DNA of 52,770 nt. Origin: Akkermansiaceae bacterium. Its GTDB lineage: Bacteria; Verrucomicrobiota; Verrucomicrobiia; Verrucomicrobiales; Akkermansiaceae. The notes below the pieces were generated by a model. It ran no database searches. It saw nothing but the letters and a program-made list of their open reading frames with translations, and was not told where the DNA came from. The position numbers and the translations under genes were made by a program. Below are positions 18,844-25,374 of the stretch, piece by piece. Location of the stretch: positions 1 through 52,770 of the forward strand of contig JABDMC010000301.1 in assembly GCA_013001695.1 (NCBI GenBank), read 5' to 3'. Positions within the stretch are counted from its first letter, which is position 1; every line of letters begins with the position of its first letter.

Positions 18844-20259
18844 TCACTTCTTCTCCCATGCGAATTTGAAGAACTGGTTCTCGGTGTGCTCCCGCATGAA
18901 GATCTTCCTCGCGTCGGCCACCAGTTCGGGATGCCCGGCGGCGAGATTCTTGCGCTCCGCCCGATCCTCCTCGAGATTGTAGATCTCCACCGGGGCGTCC
19001 CGGCCCTTCTTGTTCACCCCGAGCTGCACCGCCTTCCATTTTCCCCCGGGCCCGAAGCGCGCCGCGCGTTTTCCGCCCTGCTCGTGGAACTCCCAGTAGA
19101 GCGCGTCGTGCCGCGGTTGCTCCTTGCCCCGCAGGACGGGCAGGTAGCTGATGCCGTCGAGCCCGGCCGGGACCCCGGCGCCCGCCAGTTCGCACAAGGT
19201 CGGGAAAACGTCCCAATGCGCCGAGATGTGGTCGCTCACGGCGCCCGCCCGGACCTGCCCCGGCCAGCGCACGAGGAGCGGGCAGCGGATTCCCCCCTCG
19301 TAGAGGTCGCGCTTGTAGCCGCGCAGGCCGCCGTTGCTGTTGAAAAAGTCGGGCATGTGGCCGCCCTCCTTGTGCGGGCCGTTGTCGGAGCTGAGCATCA
19401 CGATGGTGTGGTCGTCGATCCCGAGTTCCTCGAGGAGGTCGAGGACCCGCCCGATTCCCTCGTCGAGGGCCGTCATCATCCCGGCGAACTGGGCGGCCGG
19501 GTTGGTCGCGTGAGGCTTGTTGTTCCCGTACTTCCCGACCTTGTCCTCGAACTCGGGGAACCTGGTCCGGAATGGCGCCGCGTACTTCTCGGGAACGTGC
19601 ATCGCGGCGTGCGGGATGGTGTCCGGCAGGAAACAGAAAAACGGCCCGTCCTTCCTGCTGCGGATCCACTCCAGCGCCTGCTCCATGATGAGGTCGTGCG
19701 AGTAGGTCTTCCCGTCGAGGCTGATCTTCTCGTCGTCATCGTAGAGCCAGGCCGGGTAGTAGGTGTGCGCGTTGCGCTGGCAGTTGTAGCCGAAGAAGCG
19801 GTCGAATCCCTGGTGGAGGGGATCGCCCTCCGAGCCCGGGTTCCCCAGTCCCCACTTTCCGAAGGCGCCCGTCGCGTAGCCCGCCTTCTTCAGGGCCTCC
19901 GCGATGGTGAAGGTCTCCGCCGGGATCGGGTGCTGTCCGACCGGCCTGACCTCCTTGTTGCCGCGGCTGGGCGTGTGGCCGGTGTGCAGCCCCGTCATCA
20001 GGACGCTCCGCGTCGGCGCGCACACCGTCGATCCCGAGTAATGCTGCGTGAACTTCATGCCCTCGCTCGCGAGGCGGTCGATGTGCGGCGTCGCGAACTT
20101 CTTTTGGCCATAGCACGAGAGGTCGCCGTATCCGGCGTCATCGAGGAGGATGTAGATGATGTTGGGGGGGCGTGACGCTCCGCCCGCCGGCTGCTTCGCC
20201 GCCTGCGCTCCGGAGAGGGCCGGCAGCGCGGCGAGGAAAACGAGAAGAAGCTGGCGCAT
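18844..20259 (-). CDS. Sulfatase, CAPTR type
   Basis: 471-residue exported sulfatase. Signal peptide 1-20; metal ligands in NIIYILLDDAGYGD (Asp40, Asp41); maturation motif C80-A-P-T-R preceded by YSGSTV; then GKWGLG, PHAAM, SSDNGPH and KRDLYEGGIR, which are typical of arylsulfatase-A-like family members. The C-terminus has the usual IYNLEEDRAERKNLA element. The substrate is not deducible. It follows another sulfatase (20326-21708) on the same strand with a gap of 66 bases and is 44-47% similar to it by eye only in the motif regions; the two are probably one operon, closed by the terminator at 18805-18825. Confidence 0.93.
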   Translation of the reverse strand: MRQLLLVFLAALPALSGAQAAKQPAGGASRPPNIIYILLDDAGYGDLSCYGQKKFATPHIDRLASEGMKFTQHYSGSTVCAPTRSVLMTGLHTGHTPSRGNKEVRPVGQHPIPAETFTIAEALKKAGYATGAFGKWGLGNPGSEGDPLHQGFDRFFGYNCQRNAHTYYPAWLYDDDEKISLDGKTYSHDLIMEQALEWIRSRKDGPFFCFLPDTIPHAAMHVPEKYAAPFRTRFPEFEDKVGKYGNNKPHATNPAAQFAGMMTALDEGIGRVLDLLEELGIDDHTIVMLSSDNGPHKEGGHMPDFFNSNGGLRGYKRDLYEGGIRCPLLVRWPGQVRAGAVSDHISAHWDVFPTLCELAGAGVPAGLDGISYLPVLRGKEQPRHDALYWEFHEQGGKRAARFGPGGKWKAVQLGVNKKGRDAPVEIYNLEEDRAERKNLAAGHPELVADARKIFMREHTENQFFKFAWEKK

Positions 20260-20325
20260 GGGGCCGGATACGTTGCGGGGAGCGGCGATTGTTCAAGGGA
20301 GAGGCCGCCGGGATCCCCGCCGGTC

Positions 20326-21708
20326 CTAGTTGAACCGCTGGCCCTCGGGATGTTCCGGCTCGCGCTGGGGGCGCATCGGGACGCGGGCCTGCTTCACGAG
20401 GGCCTCGAGCCGCATCACCTTCCGCGGGTAATTCTCGGCGAGGTTGCGTTTTTCGCCGGGATCGGCCGCGAGGTCGTAGAGTTCCCATGGCTGGTCGTTG
20501 CGCGCGCGGGCGATCTTCCAATTGTCCTTGCGGAGCCCCTGCATGGTGCCGCCCGGGACCTCGCGGTTCCTCTTCCAGTCCCACTTCCCCCATTCCCAGT
20601 AGTGGTAGTCGTGCCAGTTCGGCGGGTGCTTTCCCGAGAACGCCGCCACGTAGGACCGGCCGGTGACGTCCTTCGGGACGAACTGCGTGGCGCCCGCCAG
20701 CTCCGCGAGGGTCGGCAGGGCGTCCTGCGCGGAGGCGATGAGGACGTCGTTGCGGGCCGGCGCGATCGTCCCCTTCCAGCGCACCAGCAAGGGCGCGCGC
20801 ACCCCGCCCTCGTAGGGGGAGCGCTTCTGCCCCCGCAGCGGACCCGAGGAGCGGATCGTCTCGTTCTGCTTGCCGGTCAGGGCCGAGCCGTTGTCGGAGT
20901 GAAAGAAGACGACCGTGTTCCCCGCGATCCCGAGCTCGTCGAGGAGGTCGAGCAATTCGCCCATGTGGCGGTCCACGAGCGTCGTCATGGCGGCGTGGCC
21001 CTTCACCGTGCCGGACCAGCCCTCGCGGTCCTTGTAGTGGTCCCAGATCGGGTCCTCGTGCGGGAAGTTGTAGCCGCCGTGCGGCGGGGTCCACGGGCCG
21101 TAGGCGAAGAACGGTTTGCCGTCCTCCGCCGCGCGGCGGATGAACTTCTTCATTTCGCCGAAGATCATGTCCGGCGCGTAGCCGAGCTTCGTGTCCGGCT
21201 TCGAGTTCTTGATCGGCTCCTTCACCCCGTTGCGCACCAGGAAGTCCGGGTAGTGCTTGTGGGCGTGGATCTGGTGGTAGTAGCCGTAGAACTCGTCGAA
21301 CCCCTGCTTTTCGGGGACGCCCTCGGTGCCGATGTCGCCGATGCCCCACTTCCCGAACCCGCCGGTGGCGTAGCCGGCCTTCCTGAGCACCTCCGCCACC
21401 GTGACGTCGGCGTCGAGGAGCGGCACCCCGCCGGTGTTGAGGCGCACCGAGGTCCGTCCCATGTGCTTGCCGGTCATGAGCACCGAGCGGCAGGGAGCGC
21501 AGACGGTGCAGCCCGAGTAGTGGTTGCTGACGAGGAGGCCCTCCTTCGCCATGCGGTCGAGGTGGGGGGTCCGGATGTGCGTCCCGCCGAAACAGCCGGC
21601 ATCGGCGGGGCCCATGTCGTCCACCATGACGTAGATGATGTTCGGGGCCGCCGCGGCGGCAGGGGCCATGAGGGATGTGGCGATGAGGAAAACGGCCAGG
21701 GCGCGCAT
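20326..21708 (-). CDS. Sulfatase, CAPCR type
   Basis: 460-residue exported sulfatase. Signal peptide 1-21; NIIYVMVDDMGPAD with Asp30-Asp31; maturation motif C70-A-P-C-R, fitting the Cys-x-Pro-x-Arg rule but with a second Cys in the variable position. Further motifs: GKWGIGD, HSDNGS, KRSPYEGGVRAPLLV and the C-terminal LYDLAADPGEKRNLA. Start at the ATG at 21706-21708, which opens the signal peptide (an upstream ATG at 21744 would only add a basic leader and intrude on the control region shared with the divergent selenoprotein-like gene at 21758). First gene of a leftward sulfatase pair. Confidence 0.93.
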   Translation of the reverse strand: MRALAVFLIATSLMAPAAAAAPNIIYVMVDDMGPADAGCFGGTHIRTPHLDRMAKEGLLVSNHYSGCTVCAPCRSVLMTGKHMGRTSVRLNTGGVPLLDADVTVAEVLRKAGYATGGFGKWGIGDIGTEGVPEKQGFDEFYGYYHQIHAHKHYPDFLVRNGVKEPIKNSKPDTKLGYAPDMIFGEMKKFIRRAAEDGKPFFAYGPWTPPHGGYNFPHEDPIWDHYKDREGWSGTVKGHAAMTTLVDRHMGELLDLLDELGIAGNTVVFFHSDNGSALTGKQNETIRSSGPLRGQKRSPYEGGVRAPLLVRWKGTIAPARNDVLIASAQDALPTLAELAGATQFVPKDVTGRSYVAAFSGKHPPNWHDYHYWEWGKWDWKRNREVPGGTMQGLRKDNWKIARARNDQPWELYDLAADPGEKRNLAENYPRKVMRLEALVKQARVPMRPQREPEHPEGQRFN

Positions 21709-21757
21709 GGGGCGATTCCTACGTTGCGGGAGTCGGCAAGTCATTCATAATTCCGCC

Positions 21758-21973
21758 ATGGCGATCGAGATCGAATATTGCGGGGCCTGAAACTTCCTTC
21801 CCGATGCCGAGCGTGTCTCGGCGGAGATCACGGCGAAGACCGGCGAGAAGGTGAAACTGGTCCGCGGCGGCGGCGGGATCTTCGAGGTCCGGCGCGACGG
21901 CGAGGTGCTCTACAGCAAGGCCGAGACGGGACGCTTTCCCGAACCCGGGGAAGCCGCGAAGCTGTTCGATTGA
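21758..21973 (+). CDS. SelW-like (Rdx family) probable selenoprotein, TGA = Sec
   Basis: A 71-residue reading that contains one in-frame TGA (21788-21790) and ends at TGA 21971-21973. Translated through the first TGA it gives MAIEIEYCGA-U-NFLPDAERVSAEI (written here in pieces), then KTGEKVKLVRGGGGIFEVR, DGEVLYSKAETGRFPEPGE. This matches the whole SelW/Rdx family pattern: an early IEYC-x-x-[C/U] redox motif, GGxFEV, and the closing ETGRFPEPxE. The TGA is exactly where the second redox residue of C-x-x-C/U belongs (Cys8, Sec11). A hairpin fitting a bacterial SECIS follows (21806-21822). The family is a small thioredoxin-fold group thought to act in redox reactions. The reading is intact on both sides of the TGA, which argues against decay. 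No selenocysteine machinery lies in the window. Confidence 0.82.
21806..21822 (+). promoter_or_regulatory. Bacterial SECIS-like hairpin
   Basis: GCCGAG (21806-21811) pairs perfectly with CTCGGC (21817-21822) around the loop CGTGT. The apical loop begins 21 bases after the in-frame TGA and has G as its second base. From what I know of bacterial SECIS models (short stem, G in the first two loop positions, loop roughly 16-37 bases after TGA), it fits. Confidence 0.65.
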
Positions 21974-21998
21974 GGGCGGGCCGGGTGGATGTCTGTCA

Positions 21999-22121
21999 GG
22001 AGTTCACGCTTCAGCGTGCGGCCGGAACGCCGAGGGCGTTTGCCCGTGGGGTAGCGGCCCAAGCCTCCGCATGGGCGCCGTGGACCGGATGAACGCCCGG
22101 GCATGCTGAAGCATGGACTCC
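21999..22121. repeat. Inverted-repeat element (123 bp)
   Basis: The arms 21999-22018 (GGAGTTCACGCTTCAGCGTG) and 22102-22121 are complementary at 17 of 20 positions. Each arm also contains its own small palindrome (CACGCTTCAGCGTG; CATGCTGAAGCATG). It lies between the SelW-like gene and the sulfatase ending at 22153 and has no coding content. Confidence 0.65.
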
Positions 22122-22152
22122 CGGCAGATTCTGAGTCGGGATTCAGGTGGCC

Positions 22153-25100
22153 CTACGGCTGATACCGCACCCGGTAGAAGCGCTTCGGGGGCCCGTCGGG
22201 GTGGCCGGCCGGATGCGGCGCCTGGACGACGACCTCCTGCACGCCTCCGAAGCGGGTTCGAGCCTGGGTGTAGAGAGCGGCGGTCGACCAGGTGGCGAGC
22301 GATTCCGACTGCTCGCAGATGTAGGCTCCCGCCGCCGCGGCGGGACGCTCGTAGCGAAGGCGCCAGGCAGGGCCCTTCCTCTCGGGCGCGAGGGTGACCG
22401 GCGCGGCGGGGACTTCGAGGCAAACCGTGACCGGTGTGAAGTCGCACTGCGCGTTCGTGACCGAGTAGCCGACGTGGTCGATCACGGCGGGCGGCGATCC
22501 AAGGGTGAGGGGCAGGCTGGTGGCGCCGCTGGCCAGCGTCACGGTGGCCAGGGCGGGCTCCCATACGATCTCGAGATCGTATGGCCCGGCCCCGGTCAGC
22601 GCCGCACTGGCGGAATCGCCGCCGCTCGTCAGCCGGAACAAGCCGGCATCCGGATCCGCTTCGACTTTCACCAGGTTGGCCGGGTTACTTCCCGCACCGA
22701 AGAGGAAGGCCCCGTTGGCGGCCGGTCCCCCGGACGGGTCGATGGTGAGCTTGAAGGTGACCTTGCCGGTGATGTCCTCCAGAAGCGGGGAAATTCCCTC
22801 GCCCGTTCCATTGAGCCGCAGGCCGAGGGTGCCGTAGCTGACCGTCACGCCGTTCGTGGCGGCGAATTCGTCCGTCGGCCGGAAGAACAATTCCGACGGT
22901 GAATGGTCGCCGTCCATGATGCGTTCGAGGGCCGCGGCCACGCCCGGATTCGCGCCGTGGACGTTCGATGCCTCGGCGGGATCGCTCGCGAGGTTGTAAA
23001 GTTCGTAGCTCGCGGCGCCGGTCGTCTTGTTGACGCTGCGGTGGAGTTTCCAGTCGCCCTGCCGCACCGCCCGGGTCCAGTTCGCGCCGGTGGAGAACTC
23101 GAAGTAGAGGTAATCGCGGGGTTCCTGGCATTCCGCCGGCTCGCCGAGGAGGGTGGGAAGGATCGAGCGGCCCGTGACGTCGGGCGGGTGCGGGGTGGCG
23201 GTCAGTTCGCCGAGGGTCGGCATGAGGTCGTCGAAGTGCCCGAGGATGCCGGAGGTGCTTCCCGCCGGGATCTTCCCCGGCCACGAGGCGATGAACGGCG
23301 AACGGATCCCGCCTTCGTAGAGGTTCCCCTTCGCGCCGCGGAGGCCGGCGGTCGAACCGAAGTAGGCGGCATCCACTTCCCCGACGAACGTCACCCCGTT
23401 GTCGGAACAGAAGATGAGGAGGGTGTCGTTTTCGAGCCCGAGCGATTGCAGGAGGCTGCGGATGCGGCCGATGTCGCGGTCCATGGCGGTGATCATGGCG
23501 GCGTATTCGTGACGTTTGTCCGGGGTGGCGGAGTAGTGGCCGGAACCCGGATGGGAAATCGGCGCCCCGAACGGCTGTCCGGGATAGAACTCCTCGACCG
23601 CGGTGCGCACCGCGTTGTCGAACACGATCCCGTCCCCGTCGGTGAGGTCGTCGATGTGCCCCGGCGGCTGCACCGAGACGTGCGGGATCGGGTAGGCGAG
23701 GTACATGAAGAAGGCCTCGCCGGCGTGGGCCGTGATCCAGTCGAGAGCCTCCCTTGACTGCGCGTCGTGGGAATGCACGTTGCCGTTGTTGTTCTTGTTG
23801 GCGAGCGAGAGGGCGAGGTTGTTGAAGCCGGTTTCATTGGCCGCCCCCGGGATCTCGAGCACGCCGCCCTCCGCGGCGGCGAGGGTCGGGCTGTAGTAGG
23901 CCTTGGCCATGTTGCGCCACTGGTAGGACGGGTAGTAGTGGTGCGCCTGGACCTGCCCGAGGTAGCCGAAGAAGTGGTCGAACCCCTGCAGGTTCGGGTG
24001 GCCGGTGGTGGCCGGCCCGCCCAGTCCCCACTTGCCGATGCAGGACGTCGCGTAGCCGGCGTTCTGCATGAGGGTCCCGAGGGTGAAGGTCCCGGCCGGG
24101 AGCGGCCGCTGGTAGCCGTTGCCGACTTCCCCGTTGTTGCGGATGAGCGCCTGCCCGGCGTGCTTGCCGGTCAGGAGTTGCCCGCGGGTCGGGGCGCACA
24201 CCGCCGACGGCGAATAGAAGTTCGTGAACTTCATCCCGCCCGCGGCGAGGGAGTCGATGTGGGGCGTGAGGATCTTCGTCGACCCGTAGGCCCCGACCTC
24301 CCCGATGCCGAGGTCGTCGGCCATGATGAAGATCACGTTCGGAAGCTCGGGATAGTCCGCCGGGTCGGTCGGGTCGGTCCCGCGCCGCACCTCGCCGCCG
24401 TCCTTGACGCGGTCCCCGTCGGTGTTGGGGTCGAGGGGGTCGGTGCCGGTGTCAGTGGCGGACAGGAAGGTCCCCGTGTCGGTCTCCACCCCGTCTTCGA
24501 GTCCGTCGTTGTCGGTGTCGCGGTCGTTCGGGTTCGTCCCGCCGGCCACCTCCGGACCGTCGTCCAGCCCGTCGCCGTCGCTGTCCGGTTCGGTCGGGTC
24601 GGTCCCGTTGGTGAATTCCGCGAGGTCGTCCAGCCCGTCGGTATCGAAGTCGAGGGTCCCGTCGCGTCCGGTGTCGCCGAAAAACCGGATCTCCCAGATG
24701 TCGAGCATCCCGTCCCCGTCGAGGTCGCCGGCCGCGGTCAGGATCGAGCCCGCGCCACCGTCCGATACCAGCTCGGCGTTCGTCCCGAGCACCACCGCGG
24801 CGCCGTCGACGGTGATCTTGGAGAGGTGCTCGGACTGCACCGCGGCGACGGACTCGGCGGTGAAGCGGATCTCACCGGTGAAGCTCGAGGTCAGATTGAT
24901 CGTCGACGAGTTGACGGGATTTCCGCCGCCGCTCAAGGTGAGCGTCGATGCGTCCGAGAGCGTGAGGACGATGTCGAGGAGGAACTGGACCTGGAGGGCC
25001 GTGGTTCCGGAAAGAAAGACGCTGCTGTTGCCCCCGCCCGAGTTGCTGCGCAGGCCGTAGCCGGCGCTCGCCTGAAGGGTTCCGCCGCCCGACAGGTGGA

Positions 25101-25374
25101 GGGTGTTCCCGCCGAGGTCGAAATTGGGGGCATAAGGGCCGTAGGTCCCCGCCGCCTCCGCCATGATGATCCCGCCGGGGAAGAGCGGAACCGGCTGGCC
25201 GCCGTCCACCGTTCCGGCGGGAGGCGCCGAGCCGGTATCCGTGTCGACCCAGTTCGCTTCCTGGAACACCGAAACGCCGTCACCGCCGCCGGTCCATGTC
25301 AGGGAGGCCAGCAGGGGGGTGGGCAAGAGGAGCAGGACGGCAAGACGTCCCGCCGCGAGGGCAGGAATCGGCAT
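22153..25374 (-). CDS. Multidomain sulfatase with calcium-type repeats
   Basis: 1073-residue exported protein. Signal peptide 1-23; beta-rich N-terminal region (25-210) with NW and GG repeats, resembling autotransporter-like or adhesive stretches; about 217-340 five to six Asp-rich thrombospondin type 3-like units (DSDGDGLDDGPE, DTDNDGLEDGVE), likely Ca-binding; sulfatase domain from PNVIFIMADDLG (about 345) with Asp353-Asp354 and maturation motif C393-A-P-T-R, GKWGLGG, SDNGVTF and GNLYEGGIRSPF; after about 810 a LamG-like beta-sandwich tail to the end. The architecture suggests a large, surface-held enzyme that binds its glycan substrate. It is leftward and 179 bases from the SelW-like gene, which is on the other strand. 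Confidence 0.92.
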   Translation of the reverse strand: MPIPALAAGRLAVLLLLPTPLLASLTWTGGGDGVSVFQEANWVDTDTGSAPPAGTVDGGQPVPLFPGGIIMAEAAGTYGPYAPNFDLGGNTLHLSGGGTLQASAGYGLRSNSGGGNSSVFLSGTTALQVQFLLDIVLTLSDASTLTLSGGGNPVNSSTINLTSSFTGEIRFTAESVAAVQSEHLSKITVDGAAVVLGTNAELVSDGGAGSILTAAGDLDGDGMLDIWEIRFFGDTGRDGTLDFDTDGLDDLAEFTNGTDPTEPDSDGDGLDDGPEVAGGTNPNDRDTDNDGLEDGVETDTGTFLSATDTGTDPLDPNTDGDRVKDGGEVRRGTDPTDPADYPELPNVIFIMADDLGIGEVGAYGSTKILTPHIDSLAAGGMKFTNFYSPSAVCAPTRGQLLTGKHAGQALIRNNGEVGNGYQRPLPAGTFTLGTLMQNAGYATSCIGKWGLGGPATTGHPNLQGFDHFFGYLGQVQAHHYYPSYQWRNMAKAYYSPTLAAAEGGVLEIPGAANETGFNNLALSLANKNNNGNVHSHDAQSREALDWITAHAGEAFFMYLAYPIPHVSVQPPGHIDDLTDGDGIVFDNAVRTAVEEFYPGQPFGAPISHPGSGHYSATPDKRHEYAAMITAMDRDIGRIRSLLQSLGLENDTLLIFCSDNGVTFVGEVDAAYFGSTAGLRGAKGNLYEGGIRSPFIASWPGKIPAGSTSGILGHFDDLMPTLGELTATPHPPDVTGRSILPTLLGEPAECQEPRDYLYFEFSTGANWTRAVRQGDWKLHRSVNKTTGAASYELYNLASDPAEASNVHGANPGVAAALERIMDGDHSPSELFFRPTDEFAATNGVTVSYGTLGLRLNGTGEGISPLLEDITGKVTFKLTIDPSGGPAANGAFLFGAGSNPANLVKVEADPDAGLFRLTSGGDSASAALTGAGPYDLEIVWEPALATVTLASGATSLPLTLGSPPAVIDHVGYSVTNAQCDFTPVTVCLEVPAAPVTLAPERKGPAWRLRYERPAAAAGAYICEQSESLATWSTAALYTQARTRFGGVQEVVVQAPHPAGHPDGPPKRFYRVRYQP

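Follow-up and report, generated by a model that had tools for sequence, protein, structure and literature searches.

A highly probable SelW-like selenoprotein gene with an in-frame TGA and a bacterial SECIS-type hairpin in an Akkermansiaceae genome

In the window, a stretch of 52,770 nucleotides from an Akkermansiaceae bacterium (GCA_013001695.1, contig JABDMC010000301.1), we identified a selW-like gene whose reading frame passes through one TGA and is followed downstream of this codon by a hairpin of the bacterial SECIS type (Table 1). The frame runs from the ATG at 21758 to a TGA stop at 21971-21973 and gives a product of 71 residues, including selenocysteine (Sec) at position 11, with the redox motif C8-G-A-U11. 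An earlier note on this DNA had described a 71-residue Rdx/SelW protein read through one TGA, where the TGA occupies the second place of a CxxU motif and a 6-bp hairpin with a CGTGT loop starts 15 bases after it, and all of these placements proved correct. Pfam Rdx (PF10262) matches residues 3-66 with an E-value of 6.4e-17 and a score of 62 bits (cut-off 22.6), and because this score lies above the cut-off, a chance frame is excluded. The NCBIfam model TIGR02174 was also passed (48.8 bits, cut-off 34.2). The best NCBIfam E-value (6e-23) was obtained with NF041051 SelTWH_Campy, a SelT/SelW/SelH family (seleno)protein model matched over almost the whole length, but at 80.9 bits the window gene falls below its cut-off of 88. 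The nearest homologues (74-77% identity) come from records titled, for example, Roseibacillus sp. and Akkermansiaceae bacterium, which places the window host, by inference, in a Roseibacillus-like Akkermansiaceae. Reading by eye, no Shine-Dalgarno sequence was evident before the ATG at 21758. Ordinary gene finders tend to miss such a gene owing to its in-frame TGA.

Table 1. Features of the selW-like locus in the window.
Feature	Position	Strand	Basis
selW-like (Rdx-family) gene	21758..21973	+	Pfam Rdx, TIGR02174, TGA-bearing homologues
Cys8 codon (TGC), first position of CxxU	21779..21781	+	Sequence
In-frame TGA, codon 11, predicted to be read as selenocysteine	21788..21790	+	Second position of CxxU
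Bacterial SECIS-type hairpin	21806..21822	+	Covariation, fold, published limits
Divergent sulfatase neighbour, outside the selenoprotein gene	20326..21744	-	Longest ORF; Pfam Sulfatase, E 2e-48

Three sulfatase-like genes surround selW on the minus strand (18844-25374); two are confirmed by Pfam, and the one at 18844-20259 was judged from its translation. The gap of 49 bases previously given between selW and the divergent sulfatase holds if the latter starts at 21708, which is likely, but its longest open reading frame starts at 21744 and leaves a gap of 13. Sulfatases similar to that of the window occur close to selW at some loci but are absent in 98 selW loci, a count in which loci overlap and repeat. 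As those near the selW genes of relatives are only ~37-43% identical over the longer matches, we do not propose that selW is linked to the sulfatase, and a conserved selW-sulfatase neighbourhood was dropped as a candidate.

The TGA was found at the homologous position in 47 distinct sequences, obtained from 66 loci (L021-L086, many of which represent the same gene twice) with a motif pattern and removal of identical sequences. By record title, the TGA-bearing homologues span Verrucomicrobiota, Planctomycetota, Deltaproteobacteria and others. Conservation of the codon in so many genomes excludes a sequencing error for practical purposes. Codon-by-codon comparison with eight relatives, all of which retain the TGA, gave 86, 97, and 262 changes after it at codon positions 1, 2, and 3, respectively, and because the changes concentrate at third positions, the downstream frame is under protein selection. 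Homologues with Cys in place of the TGA, which the earlier note had suggested looking for, were found (e.g. L022, L077-L079, L081, L084-L086). Two genomes, G026 (L022 and L050) and G038 (L021), possess Rdx genes of the TGA and of the Cys type side by side.

The hairpin, GCCGAG-CGTGT-CTCGGC, begins 15 nt past the TGA and spans +16 to +32 in the same ungapped register across the alignment, with a 6-bp stem (21806-21811 paired with 21817-21822) closing the loop CGTGT (21812-21816). Published limits for bacterial SECIS elements (PMC13188914) are a loop of 3-9 nt, an upper stem of 4-16 bp, a G at loop position 1 or 2, a UGA-to-loop distance of 16-37 nt and a minimum free energy of -7.5 or below. 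The window hairpin lies within these limits (loop of 5 nt, stem of 6 bp, G as the second loop base, 21 nt from UGA to loop, -9.9 kcal/mol); its C...U does not form the N1-N2 loop pair that the model specifies in finer detail. The value of -9.9 kcal/mol refers to 21805-21823, and the 19-nt hairpin alone reaches a z-score of -2.9. A 50-nt stretch folded no better than its dinucleotide shuffles (z 0.75), and since this context does not beat shuffles, single-sequence folding was rejected as proof of a SECIS. In the window sequence alone the hairpin is thus weak evidence; covariation across relatives carries the weight.

Stem positions paired in 270 of 282 cells, as compared with 244.9 +/- 3.2 under synonymous-codon shuffling, where codons were exchanged only among sequences sharing the amino acid, a stricter null that reached the observed value in 0 of 500 shuffles. 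Twelve sequences at least 30% apart gave a similar picture (66 of 72 cells paired against 58.4 +/- 2.0; 1/500 shuffles). In 46 distinct rows, 95.7% of the cells pair and four of the six pairs change on both sides. The covariation score was 0.492 against 0.144 in shuffles (0/500), with all slid registers far worse, although the columns of the hairpin coincide with conserved codons and such counts are raised by relatedness. The earlier description of the hairpin as SECIS-like is accordingly borne out, since the covariation goes beyond synonymous choice and the published limits are respected. The loop-adjacent pair is G-C in the window gene as well as in L024, L028, L034, and L044, all of the window's genus; elsewhere it is C-G in most sequences and T-A or T-G in some. 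Among the 47 Sec forms, 36 form all six pairs, 10 form five and one forms four. The same positions pair in only 0-4 of 6 in the Cys forms (23 rows left from 34 loci by a pattern filter that some Cys loci failed; of the rows, the second from L101 contains a stop and is spurious, and the input loci L094-L096 are TGA forms), and the hairpin was absent from the Cys homologues examined. A covariance model (R1) built from the 47 sequences found the window site with an E-value of 3.5e-10 and one weak other site (0.026) in the host genome, a result informative for specificity only, as the window sequence was included in the model. A search of Rfam over 21600-22160 returned only two sub-threshold snoRNA matches, which we take as chance.

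The host genome (G000; 5,134,369 bases in 399 contigs) is 97.17% complete with 0.57% contamination. It contains a tRNA-Sec (69.8 bits; anticodon TCA according to ARAGORN), selA (E 2.1e-144), a selB above cut-off in a 656-aa frame with SelB-wing_2 and SelB-wing_3, and selD (E 4.3e-113). All four genes whose presence the earlier note had proposed to check were therefore found, including selB and selC, whose absence from a near-complete genome would have spoken against its proposal. The selD gene (L019:1501-2427, minus strand) itself has one in-frame TGA, in the motif CAGU. From this motif, SelD is probably a selenoprotein too, that is, a second Sec codon would be used in the genome.

SelW tracks the Sec machinery in Verrucomicrobiales. 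Matches to TIGR02174 were obtained in 29 of 98 relatives, and in every one of these an in-frame TGA occurs in one match or more. The 48 relatives with selA include all 29; in the 50 relatives without selA no selW was found. With shared ancestry ignored, random placement would put all 29 within the 48 with a probability of 1.9e-12. In a further set of 20 genomes, chosen from later searches, selA was present in 15; the five negatives comprise G605 and G646 with decayed selW remnants, G414 and G235 with a stop-free match of the Cys form, and G596, which is 53% complete and has a form with two in-frame TGAs (UxxU). Less than 1.4 kb separates selW from selA, with both genes on one strand, in 4 of the 20 genomes tested: selW precedes selA by ~0.2-0.3 kb in G416:C73 and G152:C88, and the two are ~1.3 kb apart in G109:C13 and G258:C9. 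Within the window's genus, selW was found in 5 of 15 genomes and is absent or decayed in most, and for this reason the gene is dispensable. The decayed copies of this genus lie in G003 (L165) and G004 (L164), and the genus still has selA; further remnants were observed in the genus-g14 pair G605 (L162) and G646 (L163), which is without selA, and in G069 (L161), a member of another family of the order in which selA is present. Plasmid matches to selW were distant only (four records, below 60% identity).

An AlphaFold2 model built with 26 sequences had a mean pLDDT of 92.2, with residues 3-8 as the first strand and the CxxU after it. The top PDB matches were the Rdx/SelW proteins 2fa8, 3dex, and 2ojl (TM-score ~0.88), and mouse SelW 2npb was matched with an E-value of 1e-3; sequence and structure searches agree. 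The modelled fold is that of the bacterial Rdx structures 2fa8, 3dex, 2ojl, 2obk, and 2p0g (TM-score about 0.78-0.89 at ~26-37% identity) and also that of mouse SelW 2npb (TM-score 0.63). In the chains of these five bacterial structures, the position of the TGA is presumably taken by Cys.

We conclude that 21758-21973 almost certainly encodes a SelW-like selenoprotein in which SelB, positioned by the hairpin, decodes the codon-11 UGA as Sec. This conclusion draws on sequence, family, machinery, conservation, covariation and predicted fold, from which we infer the actual Sec insertion and the redox chemistry. SelA and SelD would make Sec-tRNA, and SelB with GTP and Sec-tRNA would bind the hairpin and deliver Sec at codon 11, the established bacterial route, as reviewed in PMC13188914. 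The product would be a small protein of thioredoxin-like fold whose first strand is followed by a C-x-x-U redox pair, and is most likely a thiol/selenol oxidoreductase. For the bacterial SelW-like family, PMC1088965 terms the function unclear and takes the CXXU motif to suggest a redox role.

The gene might instead be a pseudogene, derived from a Cys-type Rdx gene that a TGC/TGT-to-TGA change had disrupted, and decayed relatives do exist (those in G003, G004, G605, G646, and G069). We regard this as extremely improbable, as the codon is TGA in 47 distinct homologues across genera and phyla, the third-position bias persists past it and the presence of selW follows that of selA in 98 genomes. 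Near-cognate suppression or a reassigned code might place a residue other than Sec at the TGA, in agreement with a frame that goes on past the codon whichever residue is inserted; the probability of this is nevertheless negligible, given that TGA terminates other genes of the window (four of the seven ORFs checked), that homologues carry Cys at this position and that the Sec apparatus of the genome is complete.

A further alternative concerns the hairpin only, which could be a by-product of conserved codons (A-E/D-R-V-S-A) rather than an RNA signal, with Sec inserted via another element. In its favour are the conservation of these codons, the G+C-rich sequence and a 50-nt fold that does not stand out, but codon shuffles within amino acids break the pairing (none of 500 reaches the observed value), the pairing is lost in slid registers and the hairpin is missing from Cys forms, which leaves this explanation very improbable. 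The reading of the gene as a selenoprotein with a SECIS-type hairpin is thus preferred.

The earlier note overstated the novelty of the gene, since SelW-like CxxU proteins are already known and common in bacteria. Among the commonest marine selenoproteins, they form the most abundant family of the Sargasso Sea set with 48 genes (PMC1088965), share with SelD the widest distribution in GOS with 427 sequences (PMC2398784), and are counted as 35 'Selenoprotein W like' (PMC5029168). The window gene resembles these bacterial SelW-like selenoproteins (PF10262/TIGR02174) in family, in its one-Sec CxxU motif and in its downstream hairpin, and the family is also listed in PMC9312934 and PMC13188914. It differs from them in its host, which is probably a Roseibacillus-like member of the Akkermansiaceae (Verrucomicrobiota), and words beginning with Verrucomicro- were absent from the bacterial selenoprotein surveys and reviews searched for them. 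Searches on SelW in Verrucomicrobia, Roseibacillus selenocysteine and Akkermansiaceae selenoprotein revealed no description of the gene in title or abstract listings, within an incomplete open-access coverage. The window gene is thereby a firmly supported, easily missed addition to a known selenoprotein family, in a lineage unnamed in the surveys searched.

More unusual than the CxxU gene of the window are relatives with a UxxU SelW, in which two in-frame TGAs, nine bases apart, are accompanied by one hairpin (L023, L029, L040, L080, and L146-L160). Among 386 genomes, 15 such matches were found in 14 genomes, all Verrucomicrobiota, in addition to L080 from Planctomycetota. These matches and L080 all read Y-U-x-x-U-N, with an ATG located seven codons before the first TGA and a hairpin with an AGTTT loop following the second. 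A UxxU SELENOW is reported from amphioxus and the alga Ostreococcus (PMC7539508), and the bacterial family is given as CxxU only in the two reviews checked, PMC9312934 and PMC13188914. No bacterial UxxU SelW was found by title or abstract in the literature searched. We give an even chance to the proposal that the Verrucomicrobiota and one Planctomycetota relatives encode a UxxU SelW with one hairpin serving to direct Sec insertion at both UGAs, the first such case in bacteria; if true, they would offer a natural test of one bacterial SECIS serving two codons. Taken with the Cys, CxxU and decayed forms, the UxxU relatives provide a natural series for studying the gain, doubling and loss of Sec. 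The selA gene was found in 13 of the 14 UxxU genomes; the match in G510 is partial and lies where a contig ends.
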